Of a stretch of 38,058 bases of DNA, positions 22,749-32,592 are shown one piece after another. This DNA is from an uncultured Candidatus Pelagibacter sp. (lineage in GTDB: Bacteria > Pseudomonadota > Alphaproteobacteria > Pelagibacterales > Pelagibacteraceae), in NCBI GenBank assembly GCA_913030805.1, contig CAJWDL010000009.1, forward strand, positions 1 through 38,058, read 5' to 3'. The translations under genes were made by a program, and so were the position numbers. The number at the start of each line of letters is the position of its first letter. Positions within the stretch are counted from its first letter, which is position 1. The notes below the pieces were generated by a model. The model did no database searches, was not told the DNA's origin, and saw only the letters and a program-made list of their open reading frames with translations.

Positions 22749-23833
22749 TATCTCAATTTTAGAGTCGCCAATCCAATTAAAGCTAAAATTATTGAGATAA
22801 TCCAAAACCTAATTACAACTGTTGATTCTGCCCAACCTTTTTTTTCAAAATGATGGTGCAGAGGTGCCATTTGAAAAATTCTTTTTCCAGTTAATTTAAA
22901 TGAAACTACCTGAATAATTACAGAGACTGTTTCAAATACGAACAAACCACCAATGATTGCCAGCACAATTTCATGTTTTGAAACAATGCCTATAGCTCCT
23001 AACGATCCCCCAAGAGACAATGATCCGGTGTCTCCCATGAAAATTTTTGCGGGAGGTGCATTGAACCACAAAAATCCAAGACAAGCACCGCATATAGCAC
23101 CGCAAAATATTGAAACTTCACCAAGTTCTTTAATATACGGTATTTGAAGATAATTTGAGAAAACTGTGTTTCCTGTAACATAACAAATAAAAGCAAAAGA
23201 TGCTGCCACCAATATCACAGGTACAGTTGCTAGGCCATCTAACCCATCTGTTAGATTTACCGCATTTGAAGATGCAATAATTACAAATATGTAAAATGGA
23301 ATAAAAAATATTCCCATATTAAAAATTAAATTTTTAAAAAATGGAAAATATAAATTTTTCAAGTGTAAATGGTCACCAAGTTTATGCAAAAAAAATACGG
23401 CAATAAAAGCTAATAATACTTGGGCAGTAAACTTCACTTTTGGAGAAAGGCCAGATGAATTGTGATTTCTTATTTTCAGAAAATCATCAATTGATCCCAA
23501 AATTCCAAAACTACTAGCTACAAATATTAAAAACCAAATATAAATATTGGATAAATCTGCCCAAAGTAAGGTACTTAACAACATTCCTATTAAAATCACC
23601 ACCCCTCCCATTGTTGGAGTTCCAATTTTTTTAAATATGTGGTCAGCCGGACCATCTTCTCTAATAGGTCCTGTTATTTTTTTTTGTGAAAAGTATCTTA
23701 TAAATGGACCTCCAATAAGAAATACAATAATCAAAGACGTTATTAATGATAATCCTGTCCTAAATGTTAAATACCTAAATATATTTAAAAAAGAAAATTC
23801 GTTTATAAAAGATGTTAATAAACTGTATAACAT
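22748..23833 (-). CDS. mraY: Phospho-MurNAc-pentapeptide translocase MraY
   Basis: 361 residues, about ten transmembrane helices. Catalytic motifs: GTPTMGG, SIDDFLKIRNHNSSGLSP, NAVNLTDGLDGLA, MGDTGSLSLGG and APLHHHFEKKGWAE (the HHH motif). It attaches phospho-MurNAc-pentapeptide to undecaprenyl phosphate, making lipid I at the inner membrane. It starts within the stop of murEF (TAATG). Confidence 0.97.
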   Translation of the reverse strand: MLYSLLTSFINEFSFLNIFRYLTFRTGLSLITSLIIVFLIGGPFIRYFSQKKITGPIREDGPADHIFKKIGTPTMGGVVILIGMLLSTLLWADLSNIYIWFLIFVASSFGILGSIDDFLKIRNHNSSGLSPKVKFTAQVLLAFIAVFFLHKLGDHLHLKNLYFPFFKNLIFNMGIFFIPFYIFVIIASSNAVNLTDGLDGLATVPVILVAASFAFICYVTGNTVFSNYLQIPYIKELGEVSIFCGAICGACLGFLWFNAPPAKIFMGDTGSLSLGGSLGAIGIVSKHEIVLAIIGGLFVFETVSVIIQVVSFKLTGKRIFQMAPLHHHFEKKGWAESTVVIRFWIISIILALIGLATLKLR

Positions 23834-26667
23834 TAATTAATTTTTCTTTTTTTTAATTTTTTGCAAAAATTATTCAAGCCAGTTAAATTTGAACCTTTTA
23901 TCATTACATAATCATTATCGTTTATGTAATTCCTAATTAGACTGCCAACATCACTCATTGCATTTAATATTTTACCTTTTTTGTTTTTTCTCACGAATTT
24001 GTAAGTCTCCAATATAGATTTGCCAATCACAAAAACTTTATCAATGTTACTATTATTGATATATTTTGCCAAATTTTTGTGAAAAAACTTGGTTTTTTTT
24101 CCCAATTCTAACATATCTCCCAATACAAGAATTTTTTGGGTCTTTTTTTTATCGATATTATCAAAACGATTTATAGCCAGTCTCATTGAATGTGGATTAG
24201 CATTATAGCTTTCATCAAGTAAATAAAATTTTTTCTCAAAAATTTTAATTTTATTCATATCCCCTCTACCTTCCGGTATTTTAAAATTTAAAAAAATATT
24301 TTTTTTGCTCGATATATCTAGATTCAAATTAAATATAATTAGGCATGTTGAAAGAACATTTTGAATATAAGTGCTATTGTTATATTTGATGTTAAACAAG
24401 TAAACTTTATTATTATATGAAATAGAAACTTGATAAATATTCTTGTTTTTTCTTACATTCTTTAAATATAAATCTGCATATTTATTCAAACCAAAAGATT
24501 TTATCTGAACGTTTTTTTTCTCAGCCATCTGAGCTATATAATTAAAAAATTTATCGTCCCTATTCAGTATTAAAGTTCCTTGTGCAACTAAATTATTTAT
24601 AACTTCAGATTTTGCTTCTGCAATTTCTTTTTGATTTTTAAAATTTTTTATATGTGCTGAAGAAATATTTGTTATAACTGCTATATTAGGTTTTAATATT
24701 TTTGAAAGTGAGTTTATTTCACCCTTTTTATCCATACCTAATTCAAATACGCCGTAAACATCTTTCTCTTGTAGATTAGATAAACTCAAAGGAACTCCAT
24801 AATGATTGTTGAATGAAGATTTTGATGAGAAAGTGTTACCAAAATTTTTTAAAACAAAACTCGTCATATCTTTTAGGGTAGTTTTTCCAGAACTTCCTGT
24901 AATACCAATGATTTTTGCTTTAGTATGTTGTCTGGTTGCTATGGCAAGATTATTAAGTGCAATCAAAGTATTTGGAACCCGAATTAATTTTTTTGAATTT
25001 ATTCCTCTTGTTGATTTATTTACCACTACCTTTTCTGCTCCCTTTGCAATAGCCTCCTTAATAAAATTATGTCCATCTTTTCTTTTTCCTTTAATTGCAA
25101 AAAACAAGGATTTGAAATTAACTTGTTTTGAATTTATGGAAACATTATTAAAACTAAAACGATTGTAATTTGAAAACACTTCAGATGTGATACACGAATG
25201 CCAAAAGGAATTAGCAGCTTGTTTTTTTTTATTAATGAAAAATTTTTTTATTTCGCTTTTATCAGAAAAATGGATTTTTTTTAAACCAAAATCTTGATAT
25301 TGTTCGTGACCTTTGCCGGCTATAAGTAAGATTTCATTATAGCCAAGTTCTTTAATCGCCAACTGAATAGCAAACTTCCTGCTTTTTGTTTCTATAAAAT
25401 CTATCTTAATTCCTTTTTTAATTGCTTGTCTTATACTTTTTGGATTCTCAAATCTAGGATTGTCATCTGTTAAATAAATCTTTTTACAATATTTACTTGC
25501 TATGTAGCCCATAGTAGATCTTTTGCCTTTGTCACGATCTCCTCCGCATCCAAAAACAATCGAAATATTTTTATTAAATTGAAATTTTAAATTTTTTAGA
25601 ACTCTTTCTAGGGCATCTGGAGTATGTGCAAAATCAACGAATATTCGTGAATTATTTTTTAATTTTTTTATGCATTCCAATCTTCCTTTTGCAGCTTTGA
25701 TATATTTTGTTTTCTTCAAAGATTTTTTAATACTAAGACCACACTTTTCTGCTAAAAGAATGGCAAAAAGCAAATTTTTTATTTGATATTGTCCAAATAG
25801 ACAAGTTTTTAATTTATATGTTTTGTCATTATATGAAAATTCAATCTCCTGAAAATCATCATTGTATTTTTGATTTAATATTTTTAAGTTTCCACATCCA
25901 TAACCAATAGAATTAATGTTAATTTTTTTTCTTTCACATATTTTTTTTAATTTATTAAAAAAAATATTATCTTTATCTGTAATACAGAATTTTTTTTTAT
26001 TTAATAAATTATTAAATAAATAAAGTTTTGAATTTAAATAACGATCCATATTCTTATGATAGTCTAAGTGATCTCTGCTTAAATTTGTAAACACGGCAGC
26101 TTTAAAAAGAATATAATCCAATCTTTTTTGATCGAGACCATGACTCGATGCCTCTAATACCACAATGTTGATTCCTCTTTTTTTTAGTCCGGAAAGACTT
26201 TTATGTAATAGCAATGGATTTGGAGATGTAAGATTAGTCGTTTTTTTAAATAAATTTGACTCTATACCTAAAGTACCTATGGAGGCAGCATGTATCTTGT
26301 TTAATTCAAATAATTGAAAAAAAAAATTTGCAACTGAAGTTTTTCCATTAGTACCTGTTACAGCAACTATATAAGAAGGTTTTTTTTTATAAAAGTTTGA
26401 ACAAGCTTCAGATAAACTTTTCCTTACATCGCGCACCCTTAAAAGTGGAGCCTGTAAATCTTTGAATTTGATTTTTGAGTCAACAACGATTGCAGATACT
26501 TTTTTCAAGATTGTGTTTTGAATAAATTTTGTTCCAGATATTTCATTTCCCTTAATTGCAAAAAAAATATCATTTTTTTTTGCCTTTCTGCTATCAAAAC
26601 AAATGCCTTTTACATAAACTTTTTGATATTTTTTTCCTACGGACTTAAGTAGCTCGAATAAATACAT
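23833..26667 (-). CDS. murEF: Fused MurE-MurF peptide ligase
   Basis: 944 residues encoding two complete Mur ligases in one frame. Residues 1 to about 470 are MurE: VTGTNGKTSVANFF P-loop, SSHGLDQKRLD, NLSRDHLDYHKNMD, DDNPRFENP (the DNPR loop selecting meso-diaminopimelate) and LLIAGKGHEQYQ near its end. After a short lysine-rich linker, residues from about 485 are MurF: SINSKQVNFKSLFFAIKG, P-loop ITGSSGKTTLKDM, GVFELGMDKKGEI, DESYNANPHSM and LVLGDMLELG. The fusion adds meso-DAP and then D-Ala-D-Ala. No internal stop or start cluster splits the halves. It abuts ftsI with no gap. Confidence 0.95.
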   Translation of the reverse strand: MYLFELLKSVGKKYQKVYVKGICFDSRKAKKNDIFFAIKGNEISGTKFIQNTILKKVSAIVVDSKIKFKDLQAPLLRVRDVRKSLSEACSNFYKKKPSYIVAVTGTNGKTSVANFFFQLFELNKIHAASIGTLGIESNLFKKTTNLTSPNPLLLHKSLSGLKKRGINIVVLEASSHGLDQKRLDYILFKAAVFTNLSRDHLDYHKNMDRYLNSKLYLFNNLLNKKKFCITDKDNIFFNKLKKICERKKININSIGYGCGNLKILNQKYNDDFQEIEFSYNDKTYKLKTCLFGQYQIKNLLFAILLAEKCGLSIKKSLKKTKYIKAAKGRLECIKKLKNNSRIFVDFAHTPDALERVLKNLKFQFNKNISIVFGCGGDRDKGKRSTMGYIASKYCKKIYLTDDNPRFENPKSIRQAIKKGIKIDFIETKSRKFAIQLAIKELGYNEILLIAGKGHEQYQDFGLKKIHFSDKSEIKKFFINKKKQAANSFWHSCITSEVFSNYNRFSFNNVSINSKQVNFKSLFFAIKGKRKDGHNFIKEAIAKGAEKVVVNKSTRGINSKKLIRVPNTLIALNNLAIATRQHTKAKIIGITGSSGKTTLKDMTSFVLKNFGNTFSSKSSFNNHYGVPLSLSNLQEKDVYGVFELGMDKKGEINSLSKILKPNIAVITNISSAHIKNFKNQKEIAEAKSEVINNLVAQGTLILNRDDKFFNYIAQMAEKKNVQIKSFGLNKYADLYLKNVRKNKNIYQVSISYNNKVYLFNIKYNNSTYIQNVLSTCLIIFNLNLDISSKKNIFLNFKIPEGRGDMNKIKIFEKKFYLLDESYNANPHSMRLAINRFDNIDKKKTQKILVLGDMLELGKKTKFFHKNLAKYINNSNIDKVFVIGKSILETYKFVRKNKKGKILNAMSDVGSLIRNYINDNDYVMIKGSNLTGLNNFCKKLKKRKIN

Positions 26668-29978: not shown

Positions 29979-31469
29979 TTAATTTTTTTGTTTTCTTAAA
30001 AATGCAGGAATTTCAAAATCTTCCTCCTCATGTTCATTAATCAAACTCTCTGATCTCTTTTGAAAATCCACTTCTTTTTGTGGGGCATCAGCATTTTCTT
30101 CCTCAGTAAATAGCTGGGGTGTAGTTTCTTCTTTTTCTCCCTGGTTCACACTTTGAGCTATATCAGTCTGCTGTTGATTTTCTTCTTGATTATTTTGTTC
30201 AGCATTTTCTATATAAGCAAGACTGTCTAAAGAGATTTCATTCAATTTATTATTTTTAGTACCCGTGTCTAATTTATTGTCTTGAGTACCCATGTCAGCA
30301 TTATTTCGTTCTGCTGGAACACTTTCTTTATCTAAGTCATGATCCATTTTTAATGCATTGGCACCATAAATAGGCGCTGAATTCAAACTATCTTCATTGC
30401 TTGCGACTTGAGCGACATTTGGATTTATTGCAGGATTCAAGTAACCATAGTTTCTATTTTGAATTCGATGAACCATACTAACTACAGATTTTTCTTCTGG
30501 TGATATTCCATCCAAAGAAGTGGCAACAATGGATACTCTCATTTTACCATCCAATGAACTATCTGTAATAGAACCGATTATTACCTCGGCATCAGAATCA
30601 ACTTCTGCTCTTACTTTATTTACGGCTTCTTCTACTTCAAAAAGTTTTAAATCTTTTCCACCCGTAATATTTACCAAAAGTCCTTTTGCACCCTGCAAAG
30701 AATATTCGTCGATTAGCGGATTGTTTAAGGCTAATTCTGCCGATTGAAGTGCTCTTTTTTCTCCTTCAGCTTCTCCTGTTCCCATCATTGCTTTGCCCAT
30801 ACTCTTCATAATATTTTCAACATCGGCAAAATCTAGATTGATAAGACCGGGTTTAACCATTAAGTCTGTTACGCTTTGAACTCCATGTTTTAAAACATTG
30901 TTGGATAGAACAAAAGATTCTTCTAACGTAGTATTCTCGTTTACTACCTTAAATAAATTTTGATTAGGAATAACAATGATTGTATCAACATGTTTCCTTA
31001 GTTCTTCTAAACCCTGATTAGCCCTACGCATCCTACTAGGACCTTCATACAGAAAGGGTAATGTGACAACTCCCACTGTTAAAATATTTAATTCTTTAGC
31101 TGCCCTGGCTATGACATGTGCTGCACCTGTGCCTGTACCGCCTCCCATGCCAGCCGTTATGAAAACCATATTGGCCCCTTGGAGAAAATTTATTATATCA
31201 TTTAATGACTCATCTGCGGCAGCTTGGCCAACATCTAATCTTGCGCCTGCGCCCAAACCATTAGTTAAATTTGCTCCTATTTGAATTTTAGCTTTAGCTT
31301 TATTCAAATTTAAATCTTGTGCATCCGTATTAACAGCAATAAATTCTACACCTTCTAATCCAGCCTCTATCATTCCATTTATTGCGTTTCCACCTGCTCC
31401 ACCAACACCAAGAATCAAAATTCTCGGATGTAATTCTTTAATTTCTGCCTTATTAACATTTATTGTCAT
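29979..31469 (-). CDS. ftsZ: Tubulin-like division GTPase FtsZ (relocated)
   Basis: 496 residues from the ATG at 31469, chosen because AAAGGAGGG lies just before it and it forms an ATGA overlap with the mraZ stop; an upstream in-frame ATG (31499) would be inside mraZ. GTP-binding: [21 protein letters not shown], tubulin signature GGGTGTGA at residues 109-116, and [11 protein letters not shown] with the T7 catalytic loop. After the globular domain (to about residue 325) comes a long Gln/Asn/Glu-rich linker and the conserved tail EIPAFLRKQ that binds FtsA. It is unexpectedly placed between mraZ and rsmH instead of after ftsA; no second copy exists in this window. Confidence 0.97.
30241..30294. 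repeat. 27-bp tandem duplication in the FtsZ linker
   Basis: Two adjacent 27-base units (30241-30267 and 30268-30294) differ at 6 positions and encode MGTQDNKLD and TGTKNNKLN. The duplication is in frame in the disordered C-terminal linker of FtsZ, a region that tolerates length change. Confidence 0.75.
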
Positions 31470-31930
31470 CTTCCCTCCTTTGAAAATTGTGTTTCCCATT
31501 TTAGACTTGCTCTATTAAAATTAGCTTTTTTCCTAGCTTGCGTTTTGAATTTTTCAAACAATTTAGGTTCCCATATTTGAAAAGTTTTTCCTTGTCCCAC
31601 AAAAAGCATTTTTTGTTTTATTTTTGCATGCTCTAACAATTTGTCAGGTATAGAGACTCTTCCCTCGCTATCAAACTGGAGATTCACACTATCTGATAAA
31701 ACTGAGGTTGCAAAAATATCTCTTTTTTCCTCGAAAGGATTTAATGAATCTATTGATTCTGAAAGTTTTTCTATTCTGCTTTGAGGACAGGCCTCTATTG
31801 AAGGATTGTTAAATGAAGGATAACAAATAACCCCACTGTATCCCATGCTACTTAAATAAGATCTAAAACTAGCAGGCACCGATACCCTCCTTTTCTTGTC
31901 TAATTTGTTTTCGTGCGTAGATAAAAACAT
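31466..31930 (-). CDS. mraZ: Transcriptional regulator MraZ
   Basis: 154 residues, normal length. Two SpoVT/AbrB-type repeats: [22 protein letters not shown] with the conserved DxKxRVSVP element, and the second [19 protein letters not shown] with the SxGRVxIP element. MraZ is a DNA-binding repressor of the mra/dcw operon in E. coli, binding TGGGN repeats; three such boxes lie upstream. The ATG at 31930 fits where family members begin but has no ribosome-binding site; a strong one lies 70 bases upstream in front of an overlapping short frame. The last codons (FSKEGR) themselves encode the ftsZ ribosome-binding site, and TGA overlaps the ftsZ ATG. Confidence 0.94.
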
Positions 31931-32000
31931 GTTTTTTTAAGTCAGAAGTATTCCAGGAAAAGTCACTATTAATTACTTGATCAAATCCTTTTAGTACCAT
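31869..32000 (-). CDS. Candidate leader ORF overlapping mraZ
   Basis: A 43-codon frame starting MVLKGFDQVINSDFSW and ending KEGIGAC has an excellent ribosome-binding site (AAAGGAGGGG at 32004-32013, three bases before ATG). It is the first start codon after the predicted promoter. Codons 24-43 overlap mraZ in another frame. At the overlap start an A7 run (31932-31938) would, with one A fewer, fuse this frame to mraZ as ...[12 protein letters not shown]. It may be a leader coupling translation to mraZ, or the true mraZ start hidden by a 1-base difference in the A-run. I recognise no family. Confidence 0.45.
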   Translation of the reverse strand: MVLKGFDQVINSDFSWNTSDLKKHVFIYARKQIRQEKEGIGAC

Positions 32001-32012
32001 ATTCCCCTCCTT

Positions 32013-32037
32013 TGGGAATTCATGGGATAATATGGGT
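32013..32037. promoter_or_regulatory. Three TGGGN boxes, putative MraZ operator
   Basis: TGGGA (32013-32017), TGGGA (32023-32027) and TGGGT (32033-32037) read on the plus strand, each separated by exactly 5 bases. This is the arrangement reported for E. coli MraZ (TGGGN repeats with 5-nt spacers). Binding would cover the -10 element of the promoter below, consistent with autorepression. Confidence 0.8.
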
Positions 32038-32055
32038 TTTCAACTTATACGTCAA
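32027..32055 (-). promoter_or_regulatory. Predicted promoter of the mraZ-ftsZ-mur cluster
   Basis: On the minus strand TTGACG (32055-32050), a 17-base spacer and TATTAT (32032-32027) form a near-consensus sigma-70-type promoter. Transcription would begin near 32020, leaving only a few bases before the AAAGGAGGGG of the leader ORF. The -10 is embedded between the second and third TGGGN boxes. It is the only strong promoter seen for the downstream 22 kb of same-strand genes. Confidence 0.7.
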
Positions 32056-32221: not shown

Positions 32222-32592
32222 GTTTGCCAGATAAACTGTAAGCCGGGTTTTGTCATTTAAACAAGTCATTTATCTAGGCTAAAAGTCTCCCTTTAGCTCA
32301 AGCAACCAACCCTGATGGCTAACCAAAGACGATTATTGTTTTAATATAAAACATCGCCATCTCTATTTGGTCTTGCTCCCGGTGGGGTTTTCCATGCGTT
32401 TTTTGTTACCAAAAAACCGGTGTGCTCTTACCACACCTTTTCACCCTTGCCTTGATAAGGCGGTATATTTTCTGTGGCACTATCCCTGAGGTCACCCTCG
32501 CCAGAGGTTATCTGGCACCGTGTCTTTGTAGAGCCCGGACTTTCCTCTTTTATATATACACATAAAAGCGACTAGTCATCTATCTGGCACAT
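32222..32592 (-). ncRNA. rnpB: RNase P RNA (type A)
   Basis: The catalytic RNA that matures tRNA 5' ends. On the minus strand the conserved GAGGAAAGTCCGGGC, CGGTGCCAGATAACCTCTGG, CCACAGAAA, TGGTAAGAGCACACCGG and terminal ACAAAACCCGGCTTACAG are present in the right order. P1 forms between GCCAGATA at the 5' end and TATCTGGC at the 3' end, which sets both boundaries to within a few bases. A TATTAT -10-like element (32599-32604) sits just before the 5' end. Its position between a cell-wall amidase and mraZ is a familiar alphaproteobacterial arrangement. Confidence 0.95.

Follow-up and report, generated by a model that had tools for sequence, protein, structure and literature searches.

The analyzed window (the whole 38,058-nt stretch of DNA) is part of a SAR11 genome, since the nearest named relatives of its MraZ belong to the Pelagibacteraceae. 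The features of the mraZ region are listed in Table 1. The product of mraZ was recognized as a PF02381 MraZ protein with both domains (profile match of 74.1 bits in two stretches, with a cut-off of 23). The gene is followed on the minus strand by ftsZ, rsmH, a gene for a 171-residue protein, ftsI, a gene for a protein with two Mur-ligase units, mraY and murD, and then by further co-directional genes (ftsW, murG, murC, murB, ddl, ftsQ, ftsA, lpxC, bamD and ligA); these gene names are our reading of Pfam hits. The start of ftsZ, judged from the sequence, is probably at 31469 (MTINV...), which would give an ATGA overlap with the mraZ stop codon. ftsZ is the second gene in all 49 Pelagibacterales loci with a readable downstream flank. 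On the other side of mraZ, the end of rnpB lies on the same strand, 167 nt upstream of the mraZ −35 hexamer, and a scan of the rnpB–mraZ interval of the window for terminator-like sites found none.

Some peculiarities of the encoded proteins were also observed. The 171-residue protein, which has no assignment, occupies the usual ftsL position in the cluster, and the two Mur-ligase units are encoded at 23833–26667 (minus strand) within a single 944-residue protein, apparently a murE-murF fusion. In the first D-x-K-G-R loop of the window's MraZ, Gly is replaced by Arg at codon 14 (31889–31891); Trp or Met occurs at this codon in the close relatives L005–L007, and Gly in 26 of 30 family loci.

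Table 1. Coordinates of the genes and of the observed and predicted control elements of the mraZ region
Feature	Positions	Strand	Remarks
rnpB, RNase P RNA class A	32223–32587	minus	upstream neighbour of mraZ, same strand
−35 hexamer TTGACG	32050–32055	minus	17 nt from −10
MraZ box A, TGGGT	32033–32037	plus	directly upstream of −10 in mraZ direction
−10 hexamer TATTAT	32027–32032	minus	in the gap between boxes A and B
MraZ box B, TGGGA	32023–32027	plus	last base common to −10
Predicted transcription start, ~32020	32018–32022	minus	placed by spacing
MraZ box C, TGGGA	32013–32017	plus	nearest to mraZ; over predicted transcription start
Shine-Dalgarno sequence of leader ORF, AAGGAGG	32006–32012	minus	adjoins box C
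Leader ORF, 43 codons + stop	31869–32000	minus	overlaps first 62 bases (~21 codons) of mraZ
mraZ, 154 aa	31466–31930	minus	PF02381
AAGGAGG inside mraZ	31886–31892	minus	6 nt before codon 18
GTG, mraZ codon 18 (Val18), candidate restart codon	31877–31879	minus	5 bases, then leader stop
ftsZ, as listed	29979–31499	minus	Pfam; second gene, after mraZ

Read in the direction of mraZ, the promoter region has the sequence ACCCA TATTAT CCCA TGAATT CCCA, with TTGACG placed 17 nt upstream of TATTAT; relative to mraZ, the boxes are TGGG on the opposite strand and CCCA on the coding one, which the initial annotation had left unmentioned. The gap of six bases separating the TGGG cores at 32023–32026 and 32033–32036 is filled precisely by TATTAT. 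Both the TGGGA-N5-TGGGA-N5-TGGGT array and the TTGACG-N17-TATTAT promoter had been described in the initial annotation and were confirmed here, the promoter and its gene being located on the minus strand. The spaced triplet TGGG-N6-TGGG-N6-TGGG (32013–32036, plus strand) was found a single time in the window, while 100 dinucleotide shuffles gave a mean of 0.00. We rejected the box pair alone as evidence (three occurrences in the window, a shuffle mean of 1.00, and 11 of 100 shuffles reaching three). The same decision was taken for the promoter consensus alone: the minus-strand promoter has 10 of 12 consensus matches, and the number of promoter-like sites (10 in 2 kb, with 7.0 ± 2.5 expected) is at chance level. 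The weight rests instead on conservation, and the promoter is credible because TTGAC and the −10 hexamer stay in register with the boxes among relatives.

The same triplet was sought upstream of mraZ in relatives, as the initial annotation had suggested, and was present in its exact form in each of the 80 named loci of Pelagibacteraceae that were used, the best 80 of 522 confirmed ones. Within these best 80 of 522, the gap between boxes A and B reads TANNNT in 79 loci; among the 79 loci whose sequence extends far enough, 76 have TTGAC 17 nt upstream; and the array lies 44–106 nt from mraZ. The second gap, inspected as a control, also reads TANNNT in 61 of the 80 (best 80 of 522); it is the distance to TTGAC that singles out the −10 hexamer, because AT-rich gaps alone do not discriminate. 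In the G genomes, which represent 13 genera, no fewer than 11 of the 12 core bases of the array are kept in all 30 loci (19 exact, 11 with one degenerate base), box A being degenerate (ACCA) in genera g6, g7, g9 and g12. TTGAC is located exactly 17 nt from the gap in 15 of these 30 loci, and in the others it is shifted by 1–2 bases or not clear. The 80 named loci partly share contigs with the G genomes (e.g. L054 and L004), which means that the 110 loci are not independent and that the figures for the 13 genera are safer than the 110-locus counts. Locus L053, at a contig end, was excluded from the upstream counts, and the downstream flank of L032 was not readable.

A genome-wide search with the exact pattern, which degenerate sites would escape, revealed a single copy of the array in each of 127 family genomes out of 143 and no copy in 16, with one occurrence of the reversed control pattern across all 143. 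In the 28 of 41 relatives with an exact array, every listed place was the mraZ position. This distribution of sites predicts that MraZ in SAR11 regulates a single operon. All 19 readable loci of the sister family f2 have the exact triple, mostly within four or five boxes.

Two side observations were made during these comparisons. The MraZ proteins of f2 (L035–L052 and L032) carry a family-conserved, in-frame hydrophobic N-terminal extension read from a TTG start (e.g. LIILITNFFLKM-ALFLSTY), which begins approx. 40 nt upstream of the aligned mraZ start and is possibly a membrane-facing helix. Genome bin G014 contains two mraZ loci (L004 and L034, on contigs C16 and C25), each with its own box triplet and respectively 90% and 76% identical to the mraZ of the window; this bin may be mixed.

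Eraso et al. (2014; cited in PMC7761207 and PMC8475190) are reported to have described the autorepression of E. coli MraZ at Pmra. The locus in the window resembles Pmra in that mraZ is the first gene of the cluster and three TGGG cores with a ten-base period are placed at the promoter. The two differ in that the repeats of E. coli K-12 read GTGGG on the coding strand, with transcription and downstream of the −10 hexamer, whereas the SAR11 boxes run against transcription with the −10 hexamer between two of them; moreover, ftsZ is the second gene in SAR11, unlike in E. coli. The E. coli-type layout, with coding-strand TGGG boxes after the −10 hexamer, was found neither in the window nor in any of the 80 relatives (best 80 of 522).

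The orientation of the array was then surveyed more widely. Among 69 alphaproteobacterial loci (those read from 121 matching genomes), an array in the CCCA orientation with at least 11 of 12 core bases was present in 61, and a forward array at that level in one; shuffled sequences reached the same level in 3 of 1035 cases for the CCCA orientation and in 0 of 1035 for the forward one. Of the loci from other classes of the same phylum (30 read, from 97 matching genomes), 24 have a forward array scoring 10 of 12 or more and 16 have one scoring 11 or more, and a reverse score of 11 occurred in none. The alphaproteobacterial arrays usually comprise four or five boxes, with TTGAC at repeated offsets inside or adjoining them; placing of the −10 hexamer, for which an E. 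coli-type consensus was used, gave any call in 22 of the 61 loci, at scattered positions. The interlock of operator and promoter is a trait of the class Alphaproteobacteria, inverted with respect to E. coli and to the loci sampled from other classes; the window represents a compact three-box case of this class-wide layout. The initial annotation had described a very compact loop with an MraZ operator interlocked with its promoter: the operator itself is well supported by the identity of MraZ and by the conserved, single-copy array, but the interlock is the ordinary alphaproteobacterial arrangement and nothing special. The annotation mentioned neither the inversion relative to E. coli nor the conserved out-of-frame leader ORF, which should influence MraZ output. 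In a search of the open-access literature (subscription papers were mostly outside it), we found no account of the orientation of the alphaproteobacterial array or of the leader ORF.

Several observations bear on the nature of the regulator. The array adjoins a gene for a two-domain PF02381 protein, consists of at least three TGGG direct repeats with a period of ten, and overlaps the predicted promoter. The protein carries Arg15, found in 110 of 110 loci and aligned also with E. coli MraZ, which we take to be the DNA-contact arginine whose importance is known from E. coli work. The predicted fold of the protein (a model of medium confidence, mean pLDDT 64) matches entries for the MraZ crystal structure and for MraZ–promoter cryo-EM complexes (9r4j and 9sz7).

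Comparable operators have been described in other bacteria. According to PMC7761207, the PmraBc repeats of Burkholderia cenocepacia lie in a fragment that is gel-shifted by MraZ and, as in SAR11, are placed at the mraZ promoter, over the transcription start; they differ in being four in number, in their GTG core, and in their position downstream of the −10 hexamer, as in E. coli. In Mollicutes, the operator is given as (AAAGTGKN3)3, with a single chromosomal site in M. genitalium (PMC5282649 and PMC8475190), and sites of the MraZ type are stated to need a period of ten and a TG core (PMC5282649). These accounts share with SAR11 the period-ten direct repeats and the repression of an ftsZ-containing cluster, and the Mollicutes operator differs in its flanking bases (PMC5282649 and PMC8475190).

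We consider it very likely that the triplet is an MraZ operator on the gene's own promoter, which autorepresses the ftsZ-led cluster, with the leader ORF as a second layer. By analogy with E. coli, Burkholderia and Mollicutes, in which binding or repression has been demonstrated (PMC7761207, PMC5282649 and PMC8475190), MraZ would bind these boxes and repress, with an effect reaching along the operon. The MraZ ring would lie along the three direct repeats, which are about one helical turn apart, and would thereby cover both the −10 hexamer and the transcription start, excluding RNA polymerase; the expected result is autorepression of mraZ together with the ftsZ-led division and cell-wall genes. 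Such a steric block would be compatible with either polarity of the boxes. After mraZ itself, ftsZ would be the gene most directly controlled, because it holds the second position in every readable locus.

It is also conceivable, though unlikely, that MraZ binds the boxes while the main flow of transcription into mraZ comes from rnpB read-through or from another upstream start, in which case the operator would serve as a roadblock or as the switch of a minor promoter. The position of rnpB, on the same strand and without a terminator-like site in between, speaks for this, as does a short rnpB 3′-end motif found no more than 900 nt upstream in 78 of 80 loci (best 80 of 522; a crude test), and in Rhodobacter sphaeroides mraZ has no start near the gene and depends on one located 268 nt upstream, according to PMC5089854. 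However, TTGAC-N17-TANNNT keeps its register with the boxes in most of the family, while the distance between the array and mraZ varies; a working local promoter is therefore favoured. Given the position of rnpB and the lack of a predicted terminator between it and mraZ, some mraZ transcription may nevertheless bypass the operator. That the repeats serve another regulator or mere promoter spacing, with no binding of MraZ, is highly improbable: the SAR11 box does lack the G that precedes TGGG in E. coli GTGGG, but the array accompanies mraZ throughout the class and occurs once per genome in SAR11, and the period-10 TGGG/TGG core recurs at mraZ in loci from other classes of the phylum.

Downstream of the operator begins a leader ORF that is out of frame with mraZ, with its start codon at 32000 and its stop codon (TAG, 31869–31871) inside mraZ. 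An ORF of this kind was identified in 109 of 110 Pelagibacteraceae loci, without exception in the same frame class, starting 7–70 nt before mraZ; the single locus that breaks the pattern (L006) does so by an extra A in an A-run. We counted the leader-frame stops at possible sites, i.e. places where a T-ending codon would create such a stop. In mraZ codons 1–20, stops were present at none of 149 possible sites in the 30 G-genome loci and at none of 394 in the named loci (best 80 of 522), compared with 41–53% of the possible sites in codons 24–148 of the same genes. The leader frame is open over codons 1–20 in 30 of 30 loci, and in 0–14 of 30 in later segments; given the amino acids and the codon usage, the chance of an open frame is approx. 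0.0005–0.0125 per locus. Multiplying these chances over the genera assumes that the genera are independent.

Explanations of a more general kind were rejected. A general codon bias at 5′-ends as the sole cause is contradicted by ftsZ of the same 80 loci (best 80 of 522), which lacks the avoidance: stops occur at 179 of its 410 possible sites, and the frame is open in a single locus of the 80. T-ending codons are somewhat rarer in mraZ codons 1–19 even where there is no risk of a stop (0.45 vs. 0.62, and 0.39 vs. 0.58). RNA structure (a leader fold was computed) is the less likely source of the codon bias, as avoidance of stops explains the codons better. Codon 11 is GAT in a single locus and codon 14 is GGT in a single locus, each time before a codon that does not allow a stop; in the GAT11 locus, this following codon is GTG, and hence no leader-frame stop arises. 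Nor is the leader effect class-wide, since 61 of 282 sites in the class are stops, and GTG at codon 18 is found there in 18 of 69 loci, independently of an open frame. In the sister family f2, 23 of 63 sites in the leader frame are stops.

The sequence suggests that the leader ORF, with its strong ribosome site, probably holds down the synthesis of full-length MraZ. The ATG of mraZ has no Shine-Dalgarno match of at least three bases in 56 of 110 loci, including the window, and 25 of 109 leaders lack such a match of at least three bases at any start. The predicted mRNA start (32001–32019, minus strand) can fold, the CCC of box C pairing with the GGG after the leader Shine-Dalgarno sequence, which is largely left in a loop. 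In PMC5089854, the dcw leader of R. sphaeroides (sRNA UpsM) offers a parallel, in being an alphaproteobacterial mraZ leader with a small ORF upstream; it differs in its length of 268 nt and its terminator, whereas the predicted SAR11 leader is much shorter (approx. 90 nt in the window) and its ORF overlaps mraZ out of frame.

The end of the leader ORF is tied to a particular codon of mraZ. Counted from the start of mraZ, the leader stops lie at +59 nt in 47 and at +65 nt in 62 of the 109 leaders, which in all 109 cases is 5 or 11 bases after codon 18. This codon is GTG in 110 of 110 loci, compared with 7.6% of the Val codons later in mraZ; the other conserved Val columns vary in codon, and in f2 GTG18 is present in 1 of 19 loci. 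GTG18 also fixes Ala in the leader frame. A Shine-Dalgarno match of at least four bases precedes GTG18 in 110 of 110 loci, a figure to which the coding of Lys-Gly-Arg contributes, as these codons favour a purine run anyway. The codon for Arg15 is AGG in 72 of 110 loci, versus 51 of 587 Arg codons located later in the gene.

The locus thus presents an upstream ORF whose stop codon is near a start codon with its own Shine-Dalgarno sequence. Termination-reinitiation couples the translation of overlapping genes, and the SAR11 arrangement is similar in that no more than twelve bases separate the stop of the upstream ORF from a GTG that has a Shine-Dalgarno sequence before it. The difference is that a restart in SAR11 would occur within a coding sequence, 17 codons past the start codon of that gene; to our knowledge, this is not known for any mraZ. 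The simplest single account of these features would be termination of the leader followed by a restart at GTG18, yielding an MraZ that lacks the N-terminal 17 residues. The full-length protein must be produced as well, since both families show no variation at residues 2, 4, 8, 11, 13, 15, 17 and 18. We therefore put forward, tentatively and with more doubt than confidence, that SAR11 mraZ is a two-product gene with nested controls, namely an inverted operator and a leader ORF that hands ribosomes to GTG18. The leader ORF would capture ribosomes, cross the mraZ start, stop past codon 18 and pass the ribosomes on to GTG18. The truncated MraZ, having lost its first 17 residues, would lack the N-terminal DNA-contact loop.

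The chances are not far from even that the leader ORF instead serves to produce a small peptide with a function, or acts as a simple decoy reducing the translation of mraZ, with GTG18 as a by-product. In favour of this, the leader frame is free of stops through codon 20 in 110 of 110 loci; the leader peptides outside the overlap are short and dissimilar, more in keeping with a decoy than with a functional peptide. What such a role leaves aside is the constancy of the leader stop behind GTG18 and of the Shine-Dalgarno match before it (the latter being partly due to coding, as noted above), together with the fact that the codon fixed here, GTG, is the sole Val codon that commonly also acts as a start. 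A programmed +1 frameshift joining the leader to mraZ, and so producing an N-terminal extension like the in-frame one that the 19 f2 loci read from TTG, is very unlikely, as the leader frame stays open up to codons 14–20, past any early shift site and further than a shift would need, no fixed slippery site was seen, and the leader stop has two positions.

If the two-product reading of mraZ is correct, repression of ftsZ and the wall genes would be tuned by the proportion in which the MraZ ring contains short and full-length subunits; alternatively, ribosomes would flow through mraZ towards ftsZ while the active repressor is kept scarce. A real leader ORF and GTG18 restart would add a translational layer to a repressor loop that is otherwise described as transcriptional. 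At the level of the class, the inversion relative to E. coli provides a natural test of whether the polarity of MraZ on DNA matters for repression. SAR11 bacteria are among the most abundant cells of the ocean and have kept few regulators; a retained one-target autoregulatory loop, with ftsZ directly behind it, offers a handle on how division is set in a minimal cell.
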